Shown here in pieces: positions 1 through 32,634 of a stretch of DNA of 40,990 nt (position 1 is its first letter; each line of letters starts with the position of its first letter). Source of the DNA: Salinadaptatus halalkaliphilus. GTDB lineage: Archaea > Halobacteriota > Halobacteria > Halobacteriales > Natrialbaceae. The position numbers were made by a program, and so were the translations under genes. The stretch is from assembly GCF_006543045.1 (NCBI RefSeq), contig NZ_RBZW01000015.1, forward strand, positions 1 through 40,990, in the 5' to 3' direction. The notes beneath the pieces are model-generated. The model made no database searches and was not told the origin of the DNA. It worked only from the letters and a program-made list of their open reading frames with translations.

Positions 1-168
1 TTCGGCGGAAACTATTTCGAAAACCGGGGAGAAAAGCGCTCAAACACGCTATCAAAGCTACACTGTGAAATCAACAAAGTGCTACACAAGAGCGAAACTA
101 TGAGCCAATCTATCGGGAAAGGCTTGGTGGAGCAGTCCGAAATACATCAGTGCAACCAGACCTCATAG
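1..168 (+). CDS. 3' end of an open frame running in from upstream
   Basis: The frame is open from the first base to a TAG at 166-168 and overlaps the start of the next gene by 19 bases. It is rich in Lys, Asn and Ser and matches no family I recognise. The frame of the next gene is also open from base 69, with a protein-like stretch (YEPIYRERLGG) but no start codon before GTG 150. This may therefore be the tail of a separate upstream gene. It may instead be the N-terminal part of the primase-like gene, joined through a frameshift near base 97. Confidence 0.3.
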   Translation, partial: FGGNYFENRGEKRSNTLSKLHCEINKVLHKSETMSQSIGKGLVEQSEIHQCNQTS

Positions 169-3100
169 AAGACGCTATCCAGATCGGTCTCGCCTCAGAA
201 CAAATTCTTCCTTGTGGCGGTGACGGAAAAGATGCCGTACGTCTCCCCAGCCCACGAGAAAACTTTGAGCACCATCTCAACGACGAACAAATCGATTTCA
301 CACAATCGTATGAAACATGGGCTAATATTTGGGAAAAATCGGGCTTGAAAAAGGATGAAAAAGAAGAGATAGCCTCTACCATAGCAACCTTAAAACTCAT
401 ATATGACTATAATTCTACTGAAGCACAAGCAGGGGTTGGTGCTGCGATTACAGCCGGCGTATTAAAAGAATCCGGCAAACAAATCACTCTTGGAGAAAGA
501 AAAATCCCCACATTTTGGGCTAATATCTACAATGAATTCTCATACTCACCCCACGAACCAATGCCAAAAGCCCGACTTCAGATCGGTTTGGAAAAGCTAC
601 ACGATTTAACAGAAGACGAAGCTAACGCAACAATAAAACTAGCACTTGACCACGGGATTCTATACAAACACGAGGACCGCTTCAGCATCAACACACCTCG
701 AGATGACAAAGGCCCCCAGATCGATGACGCAGCTTTCAATCCTGAAAGCTATCCGGTCACCATCGATAGCACAGATTCCGATCCAGACGACAAAGAGAAC
801 GACAACGACCCAACCGACACCCTAGAAGAACAATCAGCCCAAGGTACCTCCGCTGATCCCTCGCCCGAAAAGAGCCCGACCGATCCGGCCTCAACATCTG
901 AGCAAACAACTGAAACCGAAAGTACTGAGCTTGAATATACCTCTGACGAAGACGAACCACCCACAGAGAAAGCCACTTCGGACACACCACCCGGTGGCCA
1001 ACAAACACTCGGGGCTTCACTCACAGCAGAACCTCAGCCTCCCACCGACTCCACAGATCCAGCCCCAGAATCCAATTCACAGCAAGAGACAGACGCACAA
1101 TCGGATTCCACAACTGACCCAGTGGATTCCATAGATAGCTCGCAAAAATCCAATCAGGAACCAACAGAGCCCCCTCACCCAGACGACTCCACTGGCCAAG
1201 ACACAACTGAGGATTCAGAGTCCGAAACTTTCGGCTCTGGGTTTTACTCAGCAGATACTGTAACAGACTCTGAGCCTGCCCAGGACCCCGAAGGTGATCA
1301 ACACTCCAGTACCGACACCAGCAAATCGAACTCACAGCCCCAAGCAGACACACAAGCCGATCGCGACTCTCCCTCGACGAATACCCCTTCTACCTCATCC
1401 GAATCCGCTCAGGAACAATCTGAGCGCGAAACAGAAGACAGCACTGAGCCGGCAGAGTCTCCAGATTACTCTGACGACCCACTTGCCGCCGAACCCAACA
1501 GTATGCTCAAAGAGGTTGATGTCGACGATCTCAACCTCCGACCCAAACCCCGGCTTGAACGAATCCAAGCCTGTCTCGAGGAAGCAGCCGCATTCTTCCA
1601 CGCTCAACTCGAGACACCAATCGACGAGAATATCGAGTGGAACGAGACAAAGGCCTACGAGGAAGGCTACCGGAAACCCGAAACAGCACGAGAATACTTC
1701 GGCACGCCAGATACGGACCCGATACCAATCCCCCTCGAACAGGATCCAGAGGCACTCGAGAATCAACCTGCCCACCGGGACGAACAACACTCTGGCGTCA
1801 TCCCGACCGCCGACGCCAAAGCCGACGATCGTACCCCAGAGGAACTAGCAGCCGACGACCAACCTTACGCCTACCTCGGAACGGATCACCGTGGGTGGCC
1901 TGACGAGACGATCGACGACAAACAACTCGGCTGGGCACCCATCGACACCACTGCACTTTTCGACCATCTCCAGGCACACGGCTTCGAACACCACACGATG
2001 GTCGCAACTGGCCTCTTTGCCAGACCGTCCGACGCCGGCGGCAAAACCGACAACAACCGAGAGTGGGTCGACTACACGACCCAAATCGACGACGATGAAG
2101 AGCCAGACCCCCTCAAATGTCTCTTCTGCGCTCGATACGTCTTCCCATACTACGACGAGCACAATCGAGTCACGTTCCTCATCGGCCGGAAAGTCGGATT
2201 CGACACCGAACACGGCATCCACGAAAATGACTTCCTCAAAGGGAAGTACATCAAACTCGCGATGAGCAAGGGCTACTCCGCCGCCAACGAACCAATCTAC
2301 GGCCAAGAGTCCATCGTCGACGGCGAACCACTCGTGATCACCGAAGGGATTGCCGACGCGATCTCAGCTCACGCTCACGGCATCCCCTGTATCAGCCCCG
2401 TCACGACAACCGTGAAAACAGAACTTCGCGACAAACTGAGCGATATGATCCAATCTCACGGCATCCCCGACGTCCATTTCATTCAGGACGCCGACCCACC
2501 CGAGACGAGTATTCCCGCCGAAGACGACCTCGAGTACGACGAGGAGGCGTGCAAAGAGGCACTGAACACTCGACTGCTGTTCTCGCCGACCGACCTTCCA
2601 GCCGACCTCACAGCCGACCAGATCGTCGACGCCTACCAAAGCGACGAACTCGGAGCGCTACTCGAGGAGCACAACATTGCCACCGACCCCGAGGATGTGC
2701 CGGTCCACATCTTGACCGACGACCCATCGATCAGCGACAGTGGTCCAATCTCGGAAGTCCTGACGATCGGCCAGGATGGGCCAGGGGTGAAATCCGCTGT
2801 CCAAATGGGACAGATTCTCGACGCGAAAACACCCGACCAGTACTCTGCAGAACACGGCGACCTCCAACAGGCTGCATCGATCTACGAGGACCACGTCGTC
2901 AACGCACCCCCAGAGGACCACCCAACCAACGCCGAACTCGACACGCTACTCGAAGAGACGCTCGAGGAGATTGCCGCCGAAGAAACCGAAGACGAAGACG
3001 AAGCAAATCCAGCTCCAGACACGGACGGCAAAATCGACGTTCCGAGCGACTACGAAGGGACCAACATCTGGGTGACGGAACTCCCGCAGTTCGGTGACGA

Positions 3101-4574
3101 AAAACGCGACCTCGACGACTACCTCCAAGAGGGGTGGCTCTCGATCATGCCACCAGCTCAGTTCGGCCTCTGGTCGATCCTCGAGACCTTCCCAGCAACA
3201 CCCAGCGATGGACCGACCCAACCCGCCGATTGGCTGGCGAGTCTCACAAGCGACGAGGAGCCGGTGAGAGCCTACCCATCGAAGATCGATCCAACCATCC
3301 TTCGGTATCCACCAATCGACTCTGCGACACCAGAAACCTACGGGAGTGTCAAGCGTGACTGCATGGCTAGCTCCAGTGCAGTCTACAACCCAATCACCGA
3401 CACAGAACAACTGGCCACTCTCGCTCAACAGGGACTGGCAACCACCCCGTACCACCATGCTTCGTTGTTCGGCACACTCCCCTCGCTGACCCCCGGCCAA
3501 CACCCGGCATCAGCACTCCCCCCAACTGGGGGCCAATCCGGCACCGATCTCAACCTCGATCCGCAGGAACTCGAGGACCGAATTGAGTCGAACGAATGGC
3601 AGAATCTCACCGGCTCTCACAACCCCCTCTGGAGTGCCACCTTACGGGACCTTGGGTTCACGCCTGGATTCCGAGGAAAGAATCCCTTCGGCCATCACGG
3701 CGAGAGTGAAAATTACTTCGTCGTCTACGACGATGACAAAGCCTATTGTTTCAAGAACAATGTGCTCTATAATTTCTTGAACGCAACCCTGGTCGAGATC
3801 GGTGAACGACACCACGCAAATGCCGAAGGCTCGCTCTCAGATCGGGAGAAATTTTTGGTCTGGAAATACGCTCGAACAAACGGCATCGTTCCTGCCCATA
3901 CTCCTCTCCCGATCGACTCGCTCGTCTGGTACGGACTCGAGAATGATCTCGTCGAAGAATCCCAGCTCGAGCGCTGGGATACTGACGACACTGACGGCGA
4001 TGAAACCAACGCCAGCAACGCCGCGCCCAAAACCAAGTTCCCGTACGACAACTACACCCAGACACTCGAGCATATCGAAGAACACCACGGCGTCACACCA
4101 GCCCGTCTCGTCACCCTGCGCGAGGGGGATTCTTCCAGTGACAATCATAGCGGTAACGAAGATAGTCCCAAATCTGATACGATGAGCTGGGACGATGCTC
4201 TGCTCCAGTACGGTTCCTTGCACCAGCAGCAAGACGATTCGCCCGAACCACTCCAACAGTTCCTGAACTTCTTCGTCGAGATCGACACCGATGTTGACGA
4301 GCCCAAAGAGAGTGACCTGTACATCCCAACCGAGCAATTCAGAGAAGCTTATTACACCTGGGTCGATCTGGTAAACGAATACACGAGCAACACAGATGGT
4401 ATCGACTATGCTGATGTTGAAAAGAAAGCACCAAATATCTTGGGAAGAAATCTGAATGAAAATGATGATGTGTCAAAATCCCGCCGCCGAATAGACGGGC
4501 CTCTCACTTCGTGTTACATTGGAATATGCTTGAACTCAGACGGTAACAAACTATCTAACTTGACCGAAGACTAA
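150..4574 (+). CDS. large DnaG/TOPRIM primase-like replication protein
   Basis: This 1474-aa acidic protein probably makes or supports primers for plasmid replication. Residues 1-200 are an unrecognised N-terminal domain. Residues about 205-445 are a low-complexity linker of Asp, Glu, Ser, Thr and Pro. From about residue 460 it resembles the DnaG core: an Ala-Pro-Ile...GL stretch, RYVFPYYDEHNRV, and GRKVG near residue 678. A TOPRIM signature follows: TEGIADAISA near 731, with the acidic pair in FIQDADPP near 777. A single CxxC (CLFC) precedes the core, and no complete CHC2 zinc finger is seen. The C-terminal 450 residues contain a region around NPFGHHGESENYFVV that may be a further replication domain. 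The GTG at 150 is the first start codon in frame after a stop at 66-68. The iterons lie directly downstream, as expected for a replicon initiator gene. Primase activity is inferred from TOPRIM only. Confidence 0.72.
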   Translation: MQPDLIEDAIQIGLASEQILPCGGDGKDAVRLPSPRENFEHHLNDEQIDFTQSYETWANIWEKSGLKKDEKEEIASTIATLKLIYDYNSTEAQAGVGAAITAGVLKESGKQITLGERKIPTFWANIYNEFSYSPHEPMPKARLQIGLEKLHDLTEDEANATIKLALDHGILYKHEDRFSINTPRDDKGPQIDDAAFNPESYPVTIDSTDSDPDDKENDNDPTDTLEEQSAQGTSADPSPEKSPTDPASTSEQTTETESTELEYTSDEDEPPTEKATSDTPPGGQQTLGASLTAEPQPPTDSTDPAPESNSQQETDAQSDSTTDPVDSIDSSQKSNQEPTEPPHPDDSTGQDTTEDSESETFGSGFYSADTVTDSEPAQDPEGDQHSSTDTSKSNSQPQADTQADRDSPSTNTPSTSSESAQEQSERETEDSTEPAESPDYSDDPLAAEPNSMLKEVDVDDLNLRPKPRLERIQACLEEAAAFFHAQLETPIDENIEWNETKAYEEGYRKPETAREYFGTPDTDPIPIPLEQDPEALENQPAHRDEQHSGVIPTADAKADDRTPEELAADDQPYAYLGTDHRGWPDETIDDKQLGWAPIDTTALFDHLQAHGFEHHTMVATGLFARPSDAGGKTDNNREWVDYTTQIDDDEEPDPLKCLFCARYVFPYYDEHNRVTFLIGRKVGFDTEHGIHENDFLKGKYIKLAMSKGYSAANEPIYGQESIVDGEPLVITEGIADAISAHAHGIPCISPVTTTVKTELRDKLSDMIQSHGIPDVHFIQDADPPETSIPAEDDLEYDEEACKEALNTRLLFSPTDLPADLTADQIVDAYQSDELGALLEEHNIATDPEDVPVHILTDDPSISDSGPISEVLTIGQDGPGVKSAVQMGQILDAKTPDQYSAEHGDLQQAASIYEDHVVNAPPEDHPTNAELDTLLEETLEEIAAEETEDEDEANPAPDTDGKIDVPSDYEGTNIWVTELPQFGDEKRDLDDYLQEGWLSIMPPAQFGLWSILETFPATPSDGPTQPADWLASLTSDEEPVRAYPSKIDPTILRYPPIDSATPETYGSVKRDCMASSSAVYNPITDTEQLATLAQQGLATTPYHHASLFGTLPSLTPGQHPASALPPTGGQSGTDLNLDPQELEDRIESNEWQNLTGSHNPLWSATLRDLGFTPGFRGKNPFGHHGESENYFVVYDDDKAYCFKNNVLYNFLNATLVEIGERHHANAEGSLSDREKFLVWKYARTNGIVPAHTPLPIDSLVWYGLENDLVEESQLERWDTDDTDGDETNASNAAPKTKFPYDNYTQTLEHIEEHHGVTPARLVTLREGDSSSDNHSGNEDSPKSDTMSWDDALLQYGSLHQQQDDSPEPLQQFLNFFVEIDTDVDEPKESDLYIPTEQFREAYYTWVDLVNEYTSNTDGIDYADVEKKAPNILGRNLNENDDVSKSRRRIDGPLTSCYIGICLNSDGNKLSNLTED

Positions 4575-5040
4575 GAATCTAATATTTATTCAGATACATT
4601 TTCACCCCAAACAAATAGCCCCGCTAGCCGGTTTCATAGCACCACTTCGGATAGAGATCTTCCTATAGTTTGTTTTGAGAGGGACCTAACTCCCATAAAG
4701 ACATAACCATAAAGAATCACCAATAATTGGATTTCTACATCTGAAACGGAATATATTGAAATAAACCATACAACGAGGGGGTGTTCAGGGATAATCCGAT
4801 AAAAATATCAAAATTAATATTCAGCCTAATATAGCCAATAATTGCTATACGTAGCGGTGTTCAGGGATGCATAATTTCAACACAATATAGGTAAATCTCA
4901 CGATATAGGAATTCAGTATATCAATACTGATGCTATGTCTATTAGTTAAAGTGAATGGACATGCGAGTAATGCCGATTTGAGAAATCACGAAAAAAACCA
5001 TACGTAGCGGTGTTCAGGGATAGAATATGACCTATTCTAC

Positions 5041-5096
5041 CTATCCCCGAACACCCCCATCTAATCGCAAGAAGACTTAGGGGTGTTCAGGGATAG
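5041..5096. repeat. 56-bp inverted iteron pair, unit 1
   Basis: The left arm CTATCCCCGAACACCCC (5041-5057) pairs with the right arm GGGGTGTTCAGGGATAG (5080-5096) with one mismatch, around a 22-base centre containing CTAATCGCAAGA. The unit recurs almost unchanged at 5209-5264. It could bind an initiator dimer or extrude as a cruciform. Confidence 0.8.
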
Positions 5097-5208
5097 CCTC
5101 CTGACTTTATTCCGCCATATATAGAAATATTCTTGATAGTTTTTCTCTCTTTACTGAAAAAAACCATACGGCGGTACGATAGCTTCCAATTCGAGTGTTG
5201 TTTGAAGC

Positions 5209-5264
5209 CTATCCCCGAACACCCCCGCCTAATCGCAAGATGGCTTCGGGGTGTTCAGGGATAG
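5209..5264. repeat. 56-bp inverted iteron pair, unit 2
   Basis: Same arms as unit 1 and the same spacing: left arm 5209-5225 and right arm 5248-5264. The centre shares CTAATCGCAAGA and ends in a short variable part (TGGCTTC here, AGACTTA in unit 1). Conserved arms and length with a drifting centre suggest that arm spacing matters to a bound protein. Confidence 0.8.
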
Positions 5265-5410: not shown

Positions 5411-5448
5411 CCCCCATTTACCCCCGTTGGGTGGGGGGTGAATGGGGA
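5411..5448. repeat. C-tract/G-tract palindrome
   Basis: CCCCCATTTACCCCC (5411-5425) faces GGGGGTGAATGGGGA (5434-5448), giving a long imperfect stem with a loop of about 8 bases. It lies just beyond the iteron zone. G-tracts occur in haloarchaeal origin boxes, so this may belong to the origin. It could also be a transcription terminator. Confidence 0.5.
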
Positions 5449-13178: not shown

Positions 13179-13709
13179 ATGAACGTTTCGATGGAAACCG
13201 CAACTCAGTACGAGGATTTCGATCCAGCCGAGGCAGTTCTTCTCACGGTCCCCGAATTCTCCGAGGACCAGGCCCAGCTGTTTGCAGAACAGTTGTCGGC
13301 CTTCCTCGAGAGCCACGATGGTCGGTCGCTGCTTCGCTGTGTCTCGCTGTTGTACACCGCTGTCGAAGAAGACAGCGAAGCACAGGCCGTCGCGACGACC
13401 GGCGATCTCGACGCCGTCGACGACGACCTCGAGTCCAACTGGTCGATCGAACTCCAGATCGAAGGCCTCTCCTCCGAGGCCGCCGAGAAACTCGCCCGGA
13501 ACTTCCAGCCGATCCTCGACGGCACCCTGAACGATCCAGCACTTCTCCTCCTGGGGGGTAGCCTCGCGTTTGAAACCGAACACCAGCCACGCTCTGTCAT
13601 CCGTCTCCCGGCCCCCGACGGTGCCGATCGCAACGACCTCGAGTGGCACACCGACACGACAGTATCCCAGAAAACCTTCTGCGAGGAATACGACGAAGTC
13701 TCCACGTAG
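13179..13709 (+). CDS. 176-aa protein, paralogue of the product at 10240-10800
   Basis: Function unknown. The N-terminal half is helical (EDQAQLFAEQLSAFLE), the middle contains SIELQIEGLSSEAAEKLARN, and the C-terminus SVIRLPAPD...LEWHTDT parallels the 10240 product. ATG 13179 is one of three in-frame candidates (13158, 13179, 13191). It lies about 43 bases after the TATA centre, so a short leader is possible, but the choice is uncertain. Confidence 0.68.
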   Translation: MNVSMETATQYEDFDPAEAVLLTVPEFSEDQAQLFAEQLSAFLESHDGRSLLRCVSLLYTAVEEDSEAQAVATTGDLDAVDDDLESNWSIELQIEGLSSEAAEKLARNFQPILDGTLNDPALLLLGGSLAFETEHQPRSVIRLPAPDGADRNDLEWHTDTTVSQKTFCEEYDEVST

Positions 13710-17681: not shown

Positions 17682-19084
17682 CATCCGTCTTTAGTTAGGC
17701 GCAAAACCGCACGATAGCGGCGGCTTATCGGAGTTACTTTTCGGAAGGAATGAGGAGGCGGAAGATGTGCACTCTAACCCCTCCTCACAGGAAGTGGAAC
17801 GCCATCTCACTAACTTCCTTCCATCTGAAGCGCTCGAAGACCACGCCGATGCCGTCGGCGTGGTCGAGCGTGACCGGAAGCTGCAGATACCGCCGCTCGT
17901 TTGGTCATTTGCGTTCGGCTTCGCCGGCGGCGCAAGCCGAACGCTCGCCAGCTTCAGACGGAGCTACAACTCGACTGCAGACAGGACATTGTCCGCAGGA
18001 GGCTTCTATCAGCGGTTGACGCCGACTCTCACAGAGTACCTCCGCGACCTCGTCGAGTACGGGCTCGACGAGGTCGCTGTTCCTCACACCGTCTCAGAGG
18101 AGTTCAACCGATTCAGAGACGTGATGATCGCAGATGGAACGGTTCTCCGGCTCCATGAGTTGCTTTCTGAGGAGTACGAAGGTCGCCGTGATGAGCAGGC
18201 TGGAGCACGGCTCCACCTGCTCCATAACGTCACTGAGCAGACGATCGACCGGTTCAGCGTCACAGATGAGAAAAGACACGACAGCACGCAGTTCGAGACA
18301 GGATCGTGGCTCGAAGGTCGGCTAGCGATCTTCGATCTGGCCTATTTCAAGTACCGGCGGTTCGCGTTGATCGACGAGAACGACGGCTACTTCGTGAGTC
18401 GACTGAAACGCAGCTCTAACCCGGTTGTAACCGACGAATTTCGGGAATGGCGCGGCCGCGCCATTCCCTTGGAAGGGAAGAAAATCTTCGACGTCGTGGA
18501 CGATCTCTGTCGCAAGTACATCGACGTCGAAGTTGAGATCGAGTTTGACCGGAGAGAGTACGCGGGCACGCAGTCGCGCGATACGAAGCGGTTCCGCGTC
18601 GTCGGCGTCCGCAACGAGGACGCCGACGACTACCACCTGTACATCACGAATCTCTCACGCGAAGAGTTCCTGCCGGAGGATCTAGCGACGATCTACCGGT
18701 GTAGGTGGGAAGTAGAACTACTGTTTCGGGAGCTGAAGACGCAGTACAGGCTGGATGAGTTCGATACGACGAAGAAGCACGTCGTAGAGATTCTGCTGTA
18801 CGCGGCGCTGTTGTCCTTGGTTGTGAGCCGTGAGTTGCTCAGTCTGGTCATCGAACACGCAGATGATGAGCTCGTGTTCCCGCCGGAACGCTGGGCGGCG
18901 ACCTTCCGGTCGCACGCCCAGCTCATTCTCTACCGGTTGAGTGACTACCTCGGGTACTCTCCACCGCCACTGCTTGATCGGCTGATCGCCGACGCGCAGA
19001 AGATCCACAAACAACGGCCGGTTCTCCAAGAACAGCTCGCTACCGCCCTCAAACCGGCTGCTGAGGCCTAACTAAAGACCAATG
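17682..19084 (+). mobile_element. IS4-family insertion sequence, ISH8 type, complete
   Basis: The ends are the inverted repeats CATCCGTCTTTAGTTAGGC (left) and CATTGGTCTTTAGTTAGGC (right, read inward), two mismatches in 19. GACTGACGTG flanks both sides (17672-17681 and 19085-19094) as a 10-bp target duplication, the size I recall for the ISH8 group. The 1403-bp length also fits that group as I remember it. An intact duplication and an intact transposase indicate a fairly recent insertion. Confidence 0.92.
17767..19071 (+). CDS. IS4-family transposase (ISH8 type)
   Basis: This 434-aa DDE transposase appears intact. The IS4 signature is seen as YRCRWEVELLFRELK (Y-R-E-K pattern) near residue 318. 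Upstream acidic residues sit in MIADGTVLRLHEL near 119 and in IFDLAYFKYRRF near 190. It fills nearly the whole element, and the stop overlaps the right inverted repeat. The start is GTG 17767; an ATG two bases earlier is in another frame. Confidence 0.92.
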   Translation: MHSNPSSQEVERHLTNFLPSEALEDHADAVGVVERDRKLQIPPLVWSFAFGFAGGASRTLASFRRSYNSTADRTLSAGGFYQRLTPTLTEYLRDLVEYGLDEVAVPHTVSEEFNRFRDVMIADGTVLRLHELLSEEYEGRRDEQAGARLHLLHNVTEQTIDRFSVTDEKRHDSTQFETGSWLEGRLAIFDLAYFKYRRFALIDENDGYFVSRLKRSSNPVVTDEFREWRGRAIPLEGKKIFDVVDDLCRKYIDVEVEIEFDRREYAGTQSRDTKRFRVVGVRNEDADDYHLYITNLSREEFLPEDLATIYRCRWEVELLFRELKTQYRLDEFDTTKKHVVEILLYAALLSLVVSRELLSLVIEHADDELVFPPERWAATFRSHAQLILYRLSDYLGYSPPPLLDRLIADAQKIHKQRPVLQEQLATALKPAAEA

Positions 19085-23868: not shown

Positions 23869-24783
23869 ATGAACGACATTCAGTCCGCTGCAGCCGACCT
23901 CGCAGAAACGGCCGACCAAATGAACGCAGACGTTTCCGAAGCCCAGATTCGAGACCAAATCGAAGAACTCACCGAGTACCGCATTCCACTCGAGGATGCC
24001 GTCAGCACCGTCCGAAGTCGCCACGAACTCTTCGGCCCGATGGAAATCGACGCGGTCGCTGACATCGACGAGGACGGTGAGTGGTTCAATCTCGAGGTCC
24101 AAGTCGTGGAGCTCTGGGAACCAAATTCGGATGCCATTGCCCAGACCGGGCTCATCGGTGACGAGAGTGGTACGATCAAGTTCACGTGGTTCGACGGCAC
24201 GGACCTGCCAATGCTGGAAGAAGGCGAAAGCTACCAGCTCGAAAGCGTCGTCTCGGACCTCTACCAGGATCGGATGTCGGTGAAGCTGAACAAGGCCACC
24301 GACGTGGTCGAACTCGAAGAGGACATCGAAGTCGCAGACCGCGAAACCGAATTCAACGGCCGAATCGTCGACATTCGGGACAACAGCGGACTCATCAAGC
24401 GCTGCTCCGAGGAGGACTGCAACCGAGTGCTCTCGAACGGCGAGTGCCCAGTCCACGGGCAGGTCGAAGGTGAGTGGGACGTGCGAACAATCGCGGTCGT
24501 CGACGACGGTACCGAGACTCGTGTGGCCACCTTCGACGCCGAAGCCACCGAGGAACTCGTCGGGATGTCTGTCGAAGACGCACGCAACATGCTCGCGAAG
24601 AACCCCGACCCAGACATGATCCAGCACGAAATCGAGACGGAAACGCTCGGCCAGCGTGTCTCGGTGACGGGTCCACAGTACGAAAACGACTCCTCGCCGA
24701 CCATCTTCGTCGATTCGTTCGAAACCGTCAGCGGCGTGACCATGGACGACATCGACAACGTCCTGGTTCGCGCTCGCTCCTAA
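23869..24783 (+). CDS. rpa: replication protein A (single-stranded DNA-binding)
   Basis: This 304-aa haloarchaeal RPA binds single-stranded DNA in replication and repair. Residues about 55-150 form an OB fold (FNLEVQVVELWEPN, GTIKFTWFDGTDLPML, GESYQLESVVSDLYQDRMSVKL). A zinc finger C179-C184-C193-H196 sits in a second domain, as in archaeal RPA large subunits. The N-terminal helices resemble the usual start of these proteins. The RPAP gene follows 194 bases later, the arrangement known for haloarchaeal rpa/rpap pairs. Within this replicon it may be a plasmid-specific copy. Start ATG 23869 has no competitor. Confidence 0.9.
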   Translation: MNDIQSAAADLAETADQMNADVSEAQIRDQIEELTEYRIPLEDAVSTVRSRHELFGPMEIDAVADIDEDGEWFNLEVQVVELWEPNSDAIAQTGLIGDESGTIKFTWFDGTDLPMLEEGESYQLESVVSDLYQDRMSVKLNKATDVVELEEDIEVADRETEFNGRIVDIRDNSGLIKRCSEEDCNRVLSNGECPVHGQVEGEWDVRTIAVVDDGTETRVATFDAEATEELVGMSVEDARNMLAKNPDPDMIQHEIETETLGQRVSVTGPQYENDSSPTIFVDSFETVSGVTMDDIDNVLVRARS

Positions 24784-26424: not shown

Positions 26425-26955
26425 TCAGTCTTGACCGACCTGTCGTCGCTCCTCGAGGACGAGTTCGGCGACCCGTTCGGGTTGTTCGTTCGCAAGGCGG
26501 AGCACCGCGTCGTGGATCTCACGGGTCTCCTCGTCGAGGACCTCTGCCTGAGCCAACTTCGGAACAATTATTGTCCGAATGACGCTTTCGAACTGATCGA
26601 CCGTCTCGCTGCGCGCGTAGAACGGCTTCTGCTGGACGTCACTGTACTCGAACGCCGGACCCGATTCCGCGGGAGACACCGGCTCCAATCCCCCGGACGT
26701 GTCGGCGTTGTTATCGGCCTTGGACTGGCGGGTCGTCGGCGATTTGCTCGAACTCGAGTCCGTTTCGATAGCAGCACTCGAGAGATCGTCGGACGGCGTC
26801 GACGAATCGGCAGTCGTCTCGTTCGCAGCCACTGTTGACTGTTCGATTTCGGTGGTAGTTTCGTCGCCCGACGCGCTCTCGTCCGCATCGGGTGATTCGG
26901 CCGCGGTTGACTCCGGACCATCGTCTTCCTTGAGATCGTCGAACGGATTGCTCAT
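26425..26955 (-). CDS. ParA partner, candidate centromere-binding protein
   Basis: Residues 1-95 of this 176-aa protein are acidic and Ser/Thr-rich, certainly disordered. Residues about 105-176 are an ordered helical domain (KPFYARSETVDQFESVIRTI, LDEETREIHDAVLRLANEQP, AELVLEERR). It is translated directly from the parA message: the start overlaps the parA stop by 4 bases. In plasmid partition loci the second gene encodes the DNA-binding adaptor, so this is the probable ParB analogue. It has no ParB/Srx or CopG signature I can see. Position is the main evidence for function. Confidence 0.72.
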   Translation of the reverse strand: MSNPFDDLKEDDGPESTAAESPDADESASGDETTTEIEQSTVAANETTADSSTPSDDLSSAAIETDSSSSKSPTTRQSKADNNADTSGGLEPVSPAESGPAFEYSDVQQKPFYARSETVDQFESVIRTIIVPKLAQAEVLDEETREIHDAVLRLANEQPERVAELVLEERRQVGQD

Positions 26956-27842
26956 CGCTCTATCCCTCCGGCCGCAACGATCTCGGCGAGTTCCTCGTAG
27001 TAGACGATCTGGTCGTTCTCTGGATCGTAGTCCTGCAACGGCTGGTTGTGCTGCAGCGATCGCGACAGCGCCGACCGGTGCCGGATCCCCGGCTTGGGCG
27101 GCGTAATCTCGCCGGTGTCGATCGCCTCGAACTCCTCACTCGTGATCCGGGCAAAGTCGGGTACGACCTCCTTGAGAGGCTGGCTGGGGTTTACTTCATA
27201 GGTTGCCGTGTTCAGGTTCTCGATCAGTTCTCGGTCTTCGGTCTGTTGATCAATCCGGTCGGAGAGCTTGTTCGGAACAACGGCAAGAACGTCAACATCG
27301 ATGTACTCCCGTGCGGGCTCGATGAGCCGTTCCATCGTTCGCTTGTAGCCGCCGATTGCGCTCGAGCCTGGTTCGATCGGGATCATGACGTTGCCTGTTG
27401 CGACGAGGGCGTTATTATTGAGCATCCCCGGATACGCTGGGCAGTCGAAGACCACATAGTCGTACTCCTCCCCTAATAGGGGATCGACGATTTTCGACTT
27501 GATCCGTGCGGACCCCTGCATCGCCCCCGCGAGATCTTTCTCGACGTCCTCAAGAGTGTCCGACGAAGGGAGCAGGTCGAACCGGTGATCGGTCGGTCGG
27601 ATCAGATCGTGAGGTGTCGCCTCGCCCTCGAGGATGATGTCGCCAAGATTGATATCGCTTTGATAGGCGTCTTCGAACCCAAGGCCGTTAGTCGCGTGCC
27701 CGTTCGGATCGAGGTCAGCAAAGAGGGTCTTGCCGTGCTCGGCGAGCTGGCGCGCAAGGTTCATTGAGGTCGTTGATTTGCCGACGCCACCTTTCAGGAT
27801 GACCACGCTGACGGCACGTGAGCCGGTCGTTGTGTCGTTCAT
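26952..27842 (-). CDS. parA: ParA-family partition ATPase
   Basis: In this 296-aa protein the deviant Walker A motif KGGVGKSTT has the signature Lys at 17 and the catalytic Lys at 22. The Walker A' DLDPNGHATN follows near 43-52, and the Walker B-like YDYVVFDCPAYPG lies near 127-139. These define the ParA/Soj branch of the MinD/ParA ATPases, which moves plasmid copies on the nucleoid. The C-terminal 70 residues are charged and may contact the partner encoded just downstream. Iteron arrays lie on both sides of the operon. Confidence 0.92.
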   Translation of the reverse strand: MNDTTTGSRAVSVVILKGGVGKSTTSMNLARQLAEHGKTLFADLDPNGHATNGLGFEDAYQSDINLGDIILEGEATPHDLIRPTDHRFDLLPSSDTLEDVEKDLAGAMQGSARIKSKIVDPLLGEEYDYVVFDCPAYPGMLNNNALVATGNVMIPIEPGSSAIGGYKRTMERLIEPAREYIDVDVLAVVPNKLSDRIDQQTEDRELIENLNTATYEVNPSQPLKEVVPDFARITSEEFEAIDTGEITPPKPGIRHRSALSRSLQHNQPLQDYDPENDQIVYYEELAEIVAAGGIER

Positions 27843-28332: not shown

Positions 28333-29258
28333 GCTCTGTTGAAGAGCGGTCTAATCGGCTGATATCACGGGTTAGAAGGACGAAGCCGAGGAAACCGAGC
28401 TTGGAATGGAGATCGATATCCTCGACTTCGTTGAGCAGTGTCGAGACCTAGCTAAACAAGCGTTGGGGAAGCACGCGGGCGAGCCCGCCAGCGGCGGGTT
28501 CGCCCGCTGGATACACGTCGTTTTGCACTGTTTTCGGCTCGAAGAGGGCCATAGCTACCGTGAAACGCCGAACCGGCTGAAGTACATGTCTGAAGTACGT
28601 GACGTACTTGGCCTCGATCGGGACGAGTTGCCGGATTACAGCACGATCTACAAGTCGTTCGATCGGCTGAAAATGTGGGTGTGGCGGGCGTTGCTGCGCA
28701 TTTCAGCGCAGCAACACCCGCACTCTGGGCACGTCGCTCTCGACAGTACGTTCTTCGACCGACGCGCTGCTTCCTCATACTACCGTCAACGATCCGGGAA
28801 TAGCGTTCAGACGCTGAAAGTGACAACACTAACCGATGTGGAGTCTCTTGCAGTTCTTGACGTCCATATCTCTGCCCGGTGGAAACACGATACGAAGACA
28901 GGGCCGCAGGTCGTCCGCCGGAACGCGGACGACCTGCTTTCAGTGGCAGCTTACAAAGCCTTCCACAACTGGCACACCAAATACGAGTTCTACGCTCTCG
29001 GTGTCGAACCACTGATCTTACAGCGCGGATCAAGACCACTCACGACGGGGAACAACGGGCTAATCCGGACAAAAGACTACTCTCAGCGCTGGATGGCCGA
29101 AACTTCGTACTCGACAACGAAGCGCTCGCTCGGCGATGCCGTGCGAGCGCTGGGCTGGTATCGACAGTTCCGTGAAATTGTCCTCATGTTCGCCATCATC
29201 AACATAGAAAAGCTCTGTGAGCCTCTCTAACCATCATTCAGCAGCTATTCAACAGAGC
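28333..29258 (+). mobile_element. IS5-family insertion sequence, probably inactive
   Basis: The termini GCTCTGTTGAAGAGC (28333-28347) and GCTATTCAACAGAGC (29244-29258) are inverted repeats with one mismatch. The 926-bp span and one-gene layout fit haloarchaeal IS5-type elements. ATAA occurs on both outer sides (28326 and 29259), but I cannot fix the target duplication. The transposase carries a damaging-looking change. Confidence 0.8.
28406..29230 (+). CDS. IS5-family transposase with altered catalytic site
   Basis: This 274-aa DDE transposase of haloarchaeal IS5 type is recognised by SGHVALDSTFFDRR (Asp113), the conserved middle HDTKTGPQVVRRNADDLLSV and the C-terminal WMAETSYSTTKRS (Glu232). 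The second catalytic Asp in relatives lies in a VAADK-type motif, from memory. Here position 183 reads VAAYK, codon TAC at 28952, a single-base change from GAC. The following part (GSRPLTTGNN) also looks worn. The protein is probably inactive. Confidence 0.82.
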   Translation: MEIDILDFVEQCRDLAKQALGKHAGEPASGGFARWIHVVLHCFRLEEGHSYRETPNRLKYMSEVRDVLGLDRDELPDYSTIYKSFDRLKMWVWRALLRISAQQHPHSGHVALDSTFFDRRAASSYYRQRSGNSVQTLKVTTLTDVESLAVLDVHISARWKHDTKTGPQVVRRNADDLLSVAAYKAFHNWHTKYEFYALGVEPLILQRGSRPLTTGNNGLIRTKDYSQRWMAETSYSTTKRSLGDAVRALGWYRQFREIVLMFAIINIEKLCEPL

Positions 29259-30575: not shown

Positions 30576-32634
30576 ACGGCTTCCCATGCAAGATTTTGCG
30601 GAGAGTACGAGTGCTGCGGCTCTCGAAGAGCAGCCTATGGGCCGCAGCTGCACCTTCAGCCGCCCTCGCGGAGATATTTTCCGATCGCCCGGACGAACGT
30701 CTTGGCAGTCACGACTGGTGGAGAGCGAATATCACGCCCCATCCCGACTTTCACCAGATAATCAGTGAGTCGCCAGAGATTGTAAAGCAGGGCTGCGAAC
30801 GTGAAGCCAAACAACCGCACACGGTAGTCCTTCGAGGACGTCTTCGGGAGAAACGCCTTTACCGACTTGTATTGGTTTTCGATGTCCCAGCGTCGGCTAT
30901 AGCTGTTGGTGACGTGCCTGATCTCGTTGGGAGTGACGTGGTCGCGGTTGGTCACGAACACGGCGTAATTGCCGTCTGCTTCCTCGTCAGTTGCTGGCAC
31001 GTACAGGAATTCAGCGGTGTGATGGAGTTCGCCATTGATCGCGAACGGAACATCGTGCTTAACAGCGGCGTCAACCCCGTCTTTGCTCTTGATTTTCGCA
31101 ATCGACTCGTAGTCGTTTTCGTACTTCGGTACCGGCGTCATGTACACCAACCCACGGTCGTGGATCGTTGCGTACACGTCGTTGCTGTAGAATCCTCGAT
31201 CAAGGAGCACTTCGTCGAGATCGACGTACTGCTGGGCAATCGCCAGCAATCGGTCGACTACATCTGCCTTCGAACCGGCTGGAGCATCTTCTGGTTCCCA
31301 CGCAGAGCATTCTTTGACTGGTTCAATACCCAAGATGATCGGGACGTCGTTCCCGACGACCGTAATCGTCGCGAACGTATACCCGTGCTTGATTTCACCG
31401 TCGCCTTTGTACCCGCTGACCATCGGCGGATAGTCTGCCTTCGGGATTTGCCTGTCCTTGTCGATCCACGGCCAGACGTGGTAGGGGACGTGTGTGAAGT
31501 CGATAGCTGCTGCCACGTGGCGGTCATCGAACGGATCTTCGTGGCGAATCGTGCTGAGAATGTTCTCGGTTGCAGCGTCGAACGACTCCATCAGCGTCTC
31601 ACGAAATTCCTCGGTGAAAGCGACAACATCCCCGATGCTGTACTCCTGAAATGGTTTTGGAAGCTCCTGACCCGGTGACATCGAGAACTGCTTGATCACT
31701 CGCAGAAACGTCGAATCGTCACAGAAGTCGTTCTTATCGAGGAACCACCCTGCTTCCCCTTCAGAGTGGGCACTTCCCTGTGTCAGGCATGCGTTGGCAA
31801 ACAGATCGAGGATCTGTTCGTCCTCGTAAACTCTGTTGTCGGCTCTGTCGGATCTGAACTCGGCGAAGCCGTGTCGGCGAGCGAGTTCGACGACCTTGCT
31901 GCCATGGTCGTGTACATACTTGCGTGTCGCTGTTGACTGATCTTCGGTCTCTTCGATGTCGTTCTCGCTGGGTTGTAGTGGTAGCAATACGTCGGTGATA
32001 AGGCCCTGATCGTGGGCTTCCAAGAGTATTCCTCGTGATGCGGCCTCAAGCGTGACTTTCGTCTGTTCGCTGAACTGGCTCCAAGCATACGAGATGTTCT
32101 GTTGAGTCGGTGGCTTGGGCATCCCGAAGCCCTTCAATAGTGCTGGGCGATTCGCAAGACGGTCCGCGAGTTCGCTCTGGGAGAAGTCGTGAACCATCTG
32201 GTAGATGTAGAGTCGTGCCATCGACTCGGTGCTAAAGGTTGCTTTATTCTGATTGCGGGTATCCGTGAGCTCAGCAACTGGAATCGAGACCCGGTTGAGA
32301 AGTCGCCAGAGTGTATCAACTTGGTCACAGAGCGTTTTCGCATGATAGACGATTGCTCCTGCCATCGCGGGAGCATCATCATCCAGCGTAGGCGTCAATT
32401 CGTGTGCCACAGTAGTTCAAAATATGAGAACAGACGTATATGAATTATTCAACTAACTGCTTAGAGAATTACTTGTAGACCAGGGAGTTGATTTTTCGTA
32501 TGTAGATTATTATTCGCACACAAATAGGTCATATACTACTCTTTGAAAGACATATATCATTTCGAAAACTAGGATGTGGGTGGACTGGCTAGTTGTTAGC
32601 CCTTGTCTTTCCAGTGTTAGCTATGTGCGGGAAC
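30576..32634 (-). mobile_element. 2.06-kb insertion sequence with 10-bp flanking repeat
   Basis: CTAGCAAACT occurs directly before (30566-30575) and after (32635-32644) this span, as a target-site duplication would. The ends share only an imperfect inverted repeat (GGCTTCCC at the left, GGTTCCC read inward at the right). One transposase gene fills most of it. The exact ends are uncertain by one or two bases. Confidence 0.65.
30656..32410 (-). CDS. 584-aa DDE transposase (IS4-like superfamily)
   Basis: Recognised as a transposase by three acidic stations: AAIDFTHVPYHVW, VLLDRGFYSNDVY and YSRRWDIENQYKSVKAFLPK, the last with a Y-R-E-K-like pattern as in IS4-type enzymes. The N-terminal 150 residues are helical and would bind DNA. 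The C-terminus FGFTFAALLYNLWRLTDYLV is typical of the last helix bundle. The frame is intact, so the element could be active. I do not assign it to a named IS group. Confidence 0.85.
   Translation of the reverse strand: MAHELTPTLDDDAPAMAGAIVYHAKTLCDQVDTLWRLLNRVSIPVAELTDTRNQNKATFSTESMARLYIYQMVHDFSQSELADRLANRPALLKGFGMPKPPTQQNISYAWSQFSEQTKVTLEAASRGILLEAHDQGLITDVLLPLQPSENDIEETEDQSTATRKYVHDHGSKVVELARRHGFAEFRSDRADNRVYEDEQILDLFANACLTQGSAHSEGEAGWFLDKNDFCDDSTFLRVIKQFSMSPGQELPKPFQEYSIGDVVAFTEEFRETLMESFDAATENILSTIRHEDPFDDRHVAAAIDFTHVPYHVWPWIDKDRQIPKADYPPMVSGYKGDGEIKHGYTFATITVVGNDVPIILGIEPVKECSAWEPEDAPAGSKADVVDRLLAIAQQYVDLDEVLLDRGFYSNDVYATIHDRGLVYMTPVPKYENDYESIAKIKSKDGVDAAVKHDVPFAINGELHHTAEFLYVPATDEEADGNYAVFVTNRDHVTPNEIRHVTNSYSRRWDIENQYKSVKAFLPKTSSKDYRVRLFGFTFAALLYNLWRLTDYLVKVGMGRDIRSPPVVTAKTFVRAIGKYLREGG

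Follow-up and report, generated by a model that had tools for sequence, protein, structure and literature searches.

In phage P4, the crr region is located 46-345 bp past the alpha gene; it consists of two 120-bp repeats containing ten type-1 iterons, and its annotation states a requirement in cis for replication. The alpha protein has TOPRIM and PF03288 (59.8 bits). In Streptomyces, clt is read by the C-terminal winged helix of TraB. TraB loads at 8-bp clt repeats, as described in a review (PMC12857230). According to the same review, no relaxase is known on archaeal VirB4/VirD4 plasmids, and it is an open question how archaeal conjugative plasmids, having no recognised relaxase, select their DNA (PMC12857230).

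The DNA analyzed here (40,990 nucleotides from Salinadaptatus halalkaliphilus; referred to as the window) contains a repeat cluster that starts approximately 200 bp past the stop of the gene at 150-4574 (Table 1). Seven cores had been claimed in this cluster: five were exact copies of GGTGTTCAGGGAT on the + strand (4780, 4856, 5009, 5082, and 5250), while the two inverted copies on the - strand (5043 and 5211) were GGTGTTCGGGGAT, with one mismatch to GGTGTTCAGGGAT. When up to two mismatches were allowed, eight core matches were found in the window versus 0.96 expected from a dinucleotide shuffle, a number reached by 0 of 100 shuffles; the eighth was a stray at 13664, outside the cluster, and no second dense cluster of the core was found elsewhere in the window. 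In the whole 4.5-Mb assembly, GGTGTTCRGGGAT was found only in the array and as a single match on another contig (C6). The two inverted pairs with the same arms and 22-base spacing, noticed previously, were seen as units B and C: each had 17-nt arms with one mismatch (the same C.A mismatch in both) and a 22-nt spacer, and the units were 91% identical over 57 nt and 168 bp apart. The AT-rich character of the cluster was also borne out (GC content of 0.39 versus 0.51 in the final kb of the gene).

Table 1. Coordinates of the array elements and of the gene in front of them (positions in the window).
Feature	Positions	Strand	Remarks
Arm 1, single GGTGTTCAGGGAT	4780..4792	+	
Arm 2; site of unit A, left arm and core degenerate	4856..4868	+	
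Arm 3, single, after an E motif	5009..5021	+	
Unit B, inverted arms flanking core	5041..5096	.	
Unit B core AATCGCAAGA	5063..5072	+	
Unit C, inverted arms flanking core	5209..5264	.	
Unit C core AATCGCAAGA	5231..5240	+	
E motif copy 1, GAAATAAACCATACA	4758..4772	+	
E motif copy 2, GAAAAAAACCATACG	4990..5004	+	
E motif copy 3, GAAAAAAACCATACG	5156..5170	+	
Palindromic element ACCCCCGTTGGGTGGGGG	5420..5437	.	at +846 to +915 past the gene in 11 of 11 loci compared
1474-aa ORF, DnaG_N/TOPRIM primase region and C-terminal wHTH	150..4574	+	equivalent to residues 1825-3302 of a 3310-aa relative
Primase region: DnaG_N (residues 573-632), TOPRIM-like (729-782; ITEGIADA at 730)	1866..2495	+	weak HMM scores under the Pfam cut-off
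C-terminal domain, winged helix of PF03288 (Pox_D5 / P4 alpha) type	4215..4571	+	family inference; window copy alone not over cut-off
Wing segment RRRIDGPLTSC, co-varies with arm sequence	4482..4514	+	

The window contig was rich in insertion sequences, with a transposase-like ORF at 17767-19071 (Pfam DDE_Tnp_1) and probably two more, judged by eye, at 28406-29230 and 30656-32410. A 304-aa ORF at 23869-24783 gave weak OB-fold/RPA-type matches (RMI1_C and Rep_fac-A_C), possibly being a plasmid-borne single-strand-binding protein. A ParA-family partition ATPase was encoded at 26952-27842 (- strand), 21 kb from the array, and its 3' end was overlapped by an ORF at 26425-26955.

Homologues of the window gene were found at seven loci in GTDB genomes, and 15 plasmid records were matched. 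A search for iterons next to homologues had been set beforehand as a check: the array was present directly 3' of the gene in 11 of 11 close homologues (window counted), and a homologue without iterons, the case that would speak against the prediction, was absent among them; on the other hand, a search behind the more distant gene of Halobaculum magnesiiphilum revealed no cluster. Such a cluster also stood directly behind the homologous gene in seven divergent plasmids and, within a second family, in 19 or more of the 20 members. The common architecture consisted of arms, usually the core AAYCGCAWGA, and a GAAAATAACCATACG or AACCAACTAGTATA motif. In the close homologues, units with this core stood near +310 to +360, +523 to +567, and +698 to +748 past the gene, with GAAAATAACCATACG-like motifs preceding units B and C; the window retained only the latter two core units (+489 and +657). 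Units A and C were flipped in L015, L018, and L019, and in L016 two of the three units were retained with at most one mismatch to the core. In the whole sequence of the PV6 plasmid, the core was confined to the array. When the array itself served as a DNA query, no plasmid was matched, which would be expected of arms that differ between loci. As judged by this conservation, the cluster is a conserved and probably functional array.

A palindrome similar to ACCCCCGTTGGGTGGGGG, namely GGGGGTACCCCGTTGG, stood behind the arrays of the compact family (see below); a terminator, a nick site, and a second binding site are candidate roles. No viral homologues were found for either protein alignment or in phage records. 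Twelve viral contigs with paired TGTTCAGGGTAA were discarded as unrelated because these repeats were AT-rich and apparently coding.

The ORF in front of the array opened 150 nt from the contig edge, and the N-terminal VirD4-type motor part was found nowhere in the assembly of this genome; since the contig begins 150 nt ahead of the ORF, truncation is indistinguishable from a contig break. Intact relatives were 3210-3343 aa in length and possessed a VirD4/TraG-type ATPase ahead of the primase region, with PF10412, PF12696, and PF01935 over the cut-off and the Walker A/B signatures GSTGKGKS and MDEF. The full-length protein is a VirD4/TraG-type coupling ATPase rather than a plain primase, with a DnaG-type primase fused in the branch of the window; this membership is that of the gene family, not of the truncated window ORF. 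No match to D5_N or an SF3 helicase was found in the 3.3-kaa relatives, and membership in the P4 alpha family was rejected, the motor being of the VirD4 type instead. PF03288 was over the cut-off in a compact member (L126) and weak, below the cut-off, in others, and gave no match for the window copy. The original prediction of a primase-like gene was correct in that the primase region is present, but incomplete: the family is that of a T4SS coupling protein ending in a conserved DNA-binding tail, pHAR01 has no primase part, and the compact proteins gave no match to a primase domain. The P4/D5-type DNA-binding domain and primase region suited the earlier interpretation, and the P4 crr array sits likewise.

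The motor was cut or missing in Hezz (L009), PV6 (L010; the gene also contained one in-frame stop), and L018, as well as in the window contig, while pHAR01 (L036) had lost the primase part and kept the motor, C-terminal tail, and array. The giant fusion protein thus loses parts independently (the motor in Hezz, PV6, and L018, possibly also in the window; the primase in pHAR01), and the C-terminal tail was never lost. The dN/dS values of the primase and tail between close relatives (0.00-0.20) indicated purifying selection. AlphaFold2 models of the tail domain were uninterpretable (mean pLDDT of 41 and 44), and a PDB sequence search with the tail profile gave no match.

Arms were alike within a locus and unlike between loci, while parts of the spacer were common. 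The arm sequences were TGTTCAGGG in the window, TATCCGGGG in Hezz, L017, and L016, GGTCARGGG in PV6 and L020, CGTCAAGGG in pHAR01, TGTCCGGGG in L014, L018, and L087, TGTCGGAGG in L015 and L019, and TGTGCAGGGG in Halobaculum DT55. Exact arm matches averaged 3.33 per own cluster versus 0.021 per foreign class. In a covariation test on 33 loci, for which the register of the arms was assigned manually on script-found repeats, the wing was associated with the arm given the rest of the domain (partial Mantel r of 0.51 in the large family and 0.44 in the compact family, p of 0.0002 each, these p-values being optimistic because related loci are not independent). After the wing, the rest of the domain had no residual effect on the arm within either family (p of 0.67 and 0.16), while both contributed when the 33 loci were pooled. 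Two natural exchanges do not rest on these p-values. Between L010 and L016, the background was 7% different (control region 93% alike), the wing 69% different, and the arm different at 4 of 10 positions; between L009/L017 and L020, the corresponding values were 5% (95% alike), 69%, and 3 of 10 positions. This covariation, together with a swapped wing accompanying a swapped arm in two near-identical backgrounds, suggested that the product of the gene, through its own tail, very probably reads the array, and pointed to ~11 residues as the suspected determinant of the target. A one-residue rule (Leu with TGTT; Arg, Lys, or Gln with TGTC) was fixed before six new plasmids were fetched. It held for Leu (2/2) and Arg (1/1), but failed for Gln and left two Pro cases uncovered; it was rejected as a code and is a tendency.

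When the tail profile was run over 125 genomes of the family Natrialbaceae, to which the window belongs, matches were obtained in 33, mostly from a compact family of (mostly) 1020-1470 aa with the motor and tail. Repeated arms were found behind the compact gene in at least 19 of 20 fetched neighbourhoods, the arm of L120 being uncertain; they were direct repeats, mostly flanking the same core, followed by a AACCAACTAGTATA-like motif. The next gene belonged to one homologous family in all 20 neighbourhoods and started 53-368 bp past the stop; a scanned member gave a match to the NrS-1 polymerase HBD domain (110 bits). Upstream of the compact gene were genes for a 377-aa protein (a homologue of which is fused into the large proteins), VirB4 (NF045971, E value of 3e-50), and a membrane protein. 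The compact gene matched 111 plasmid records, and plasmids carrying this branch were typed as relaxase-less. On a 90-kb Natrinema plasmid, pilin, VirB4, VirD4, the array, and the downstream gene stood in a row; this plasmid was typed as MPF_T and non-mobilizable (MOB-suite), and carried a separate orc1/cdc6. In six further plasmids from five haloarchaeal families, for which predictions were fixed first, the AACCAACTAGTATA motif was found in 6/6 and three or more arms in 5/6; the core was within one mismatch in just 2/6, so that AAYCGCAWGA is not universal. VirB4 of the compact type was found neither on the five complete window-branch plasmids nor in the genome of the window. PF03432, the sole relaxase family searched, was found in 4 of 125 genomes and was absent from this one. 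No transmembrane segment was found in the motor protein.

The absence of Orc1/Cdc6 from the window, stated previously, extended to its contig (C17), while several Orc1/Cdc6 genes were found on other contigs of the genome. On each of the five complete large-gene plasmids, one to four Orc1/Cdc6 genes were found. An ORB-like array beside orc1 of pHAR01 differed in sequence from the gene-linked array; six ACACATCGATAGAGGGGTGT repeats in this region (L060, 974-1536), with inverted copies across orc1, form a candidate Orc1/Cdc6 origin. The array was thus unlike the Orc1/Cdc6-adjacent repeats seen here, consistent with the original prediction that the iteron-like sites belong to the gene in front. 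In the 14-kb Halorubrum BOL3-1 plasmid p13 (L011), the array core (AATCGCATGACTGCG) and AGAATAACCGCC each occurred twice at 1818-2320 with 167-bp spacing, together with a third related block. This plasmid had neither orc1 nor an annotated VirD4 gene, encoded a distant primase homologue, and is perhaps a mobilizable plasmid borrowing the reader or a distant origin.

We consider there to be an even chance that the cluster acts in cis as the loading array of the preceding gene's product, serving as a transfer-initiation (oriT/clt-like) site. From the conservation and position of the array, its locus-private arms, their covariation with the wing, and the T4SS context of the compact branch, we infer binding, motor loading, and transfer as follows. 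The C-terminal wing would bind the arms specific to its locus, several monomers would be positioned by paired arms flanking the core and by the AT-rich E motif, and the motor ring would assemble. DNA would then be primed by a primase, which is fused in the window's branch and, in the compact branch, is probably encoded separately by the NrS-1-like gene that directly follows the array. The likeliest purpose would be to mark the plasmid for cell-to-cell transfer, as an analogue of oriT/clt read by the coupling protein with no relaxase. The class of the motor, the compact T4SS operon, and the scarcity of PF03432 relaxases argue for transfer, as do the Orc1 genes found separately on each complete window-branch plasmid and the survival of the array after primase loss in pHAR01. 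This reading is weakened by the lack of a compact-type VirB4 on the five complete window-branch plasmids and in the window's genome, so that transfer there would depend on a partner acting in trans or on a mode like that of TraB, by a motor missing or cut in the window, Hezz, PV6, and L018 while the primase and tail stay under purifying selection, and by the motor protein having no transmembrane segment. A P4/D5-type tail with a primase is also typical of replication proteins, and this counts against transfer.

These last points lead to a serious rival, possible if on balance doubtful, in which the array is a P4-type replication origin: the primase-motor protein would bind the array via its C-terminal domain, open AT-rich DNA, and prime plasmid replication. 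The layout is the same as that of P4 crr, with its TOPRIM/PF03288 protein and cis requirement, and the type-1 sites of P4 (CTGTTCACC) may be compared with GTGTTCAGGG of the window. The pRN1 origin likewise stands behind its rep gene (PMC4234260), the primase and tail are kept without the motor, the primase is fused or probably adjacent, VirB4 is not found on the five complete window-branch plasmids, and p13, which has no orc1, repeats two array motifs. However, Orc1/Cdc6 genes occur on all five complete large-gene plasmids, that is, other candidate origins exist on the same replicons, which goes against the origin as originally proposed. The compact branch resides in T4SS operons with no primase domain detected in its protein, and pHAR01 lacks the primase part. 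The GC-skew check gave no independent support: in the whole PV6 and DT55 plasmids, the extremes near the gene coincided with the gene's own strong skew, and those of DT55 were not above block shuffles. Transfer and replication may also be combined, the array being a loading site of the coupling ATPase where transfer replication is primed.

An operator or partition site, through which the C-terminal domain would autoregulate its operon or which would be centromere-like, appears unlikely. The compact array does lie between two co-oriented genes, and parA-like genes occur on the same contig or plasmids; however, ~2 kb without an annotated gene follow the large gene in complete window-branch plasmids, leaving no nearby gene to regulate, the reader is a DNA motor rather than a stand-alone regulator, and parA is 21 kb off in the window. 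It is highly improbable that the inverted, nearly complementary arms of units B and C act as a hairpin in a structured RNA or cruciform, given the direct-repeat arms around the same core in the compact branch, the shared C.A mismatch in both window units, and no Rfam match near the gathering score.

If the preferred reading as a transfer loading site is correct, the array may be the missing address by which haloarchaeal plasmids choose DNA to transfer or copy. The gene-plus-repeats pair is usually found inside a DNA-transfer operon on haloarchaeal plasmids, and the array and tail represent a concrete candidate site and reader on dozens of such plasmids of several families, including Haloferax. 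Somewhat more tentatively than for the loading site itself, we propose that these plasmids choose the transferred DNA without a relaxase: the coupling ATPase would have its own P4-type tail, the label would lie behind its gene with a co-evolving private code, and one branch would have fused a primase, thereby joining selection, pumping, and priming. If the array is instead an origin, it would add another replicon type to the Orc1/Cdc6 and RepH types of haloarchaea, with uses in vectors and in incompatibility typing. No published description of the array was found in the open PubMed Central literature.

Among known systems, Orc1/Cdc6 origins with G-string ORBs on haloarchaeal replicons likewise have inverted repeats, G-rich at their ends, within AT-rich DNA (PMC3528665), but the present array has no adjacent orc1, its arms follow the tail of the neighbouring gene, and the orc1 repeats of pHAR01 differ in sequence. 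The Sulfolobus pRN1 origin is similarly a cis-acting site directly behind a primase-helicase gene (orf904) with a winged helix (PMC4234260), but consists of one 100-nt stem-loop rather than a repeat array, and the primase and helicase belong to other families. Archaeal VirB4/VirD4 plasmids (pNOB8 and Thermococcus pT33-3) and haloarchaeal fusexin elements share VirB4 and VirD4 with no recognised relaxase, although the accessible parts of the sources describe neither an array nor a DNA-reading tail (PMC12857230, PMC9259645); these were compared by description. The resemblance to phage P4 comprises the TOPRIM primase with C-terminal PF03288, iterons in both orientations, duplicated blocks behind the gene, and the half-site TGTTCA. 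On the other hand, alpha has a D5/SF3-type helicase instead of the VirD4 motor, P4 possesses a second iteron set at ori, and the alpha tail was too diverged from that of the window family to give a clear match in a direct profile comparison (hmmsearch E value of 0.048). TraB resembles FtsK and operates without a T4SS, whereas the haloarchaeal motor is of the VirD4/TraG type, is mostly encoded in a T4SS operon, and has a primase fused or adjacent. In both systems, a DNA-translocating ATPase is associated with short plasmid-specific repeats, which TraB reads at a cis-acting transfer locus (PMC12857230, PMC4170104), and the wing-arm covariation and natural swaps support a similar specificity of the VirD4-type, not FtsK-type, motor protein for its own repeats.
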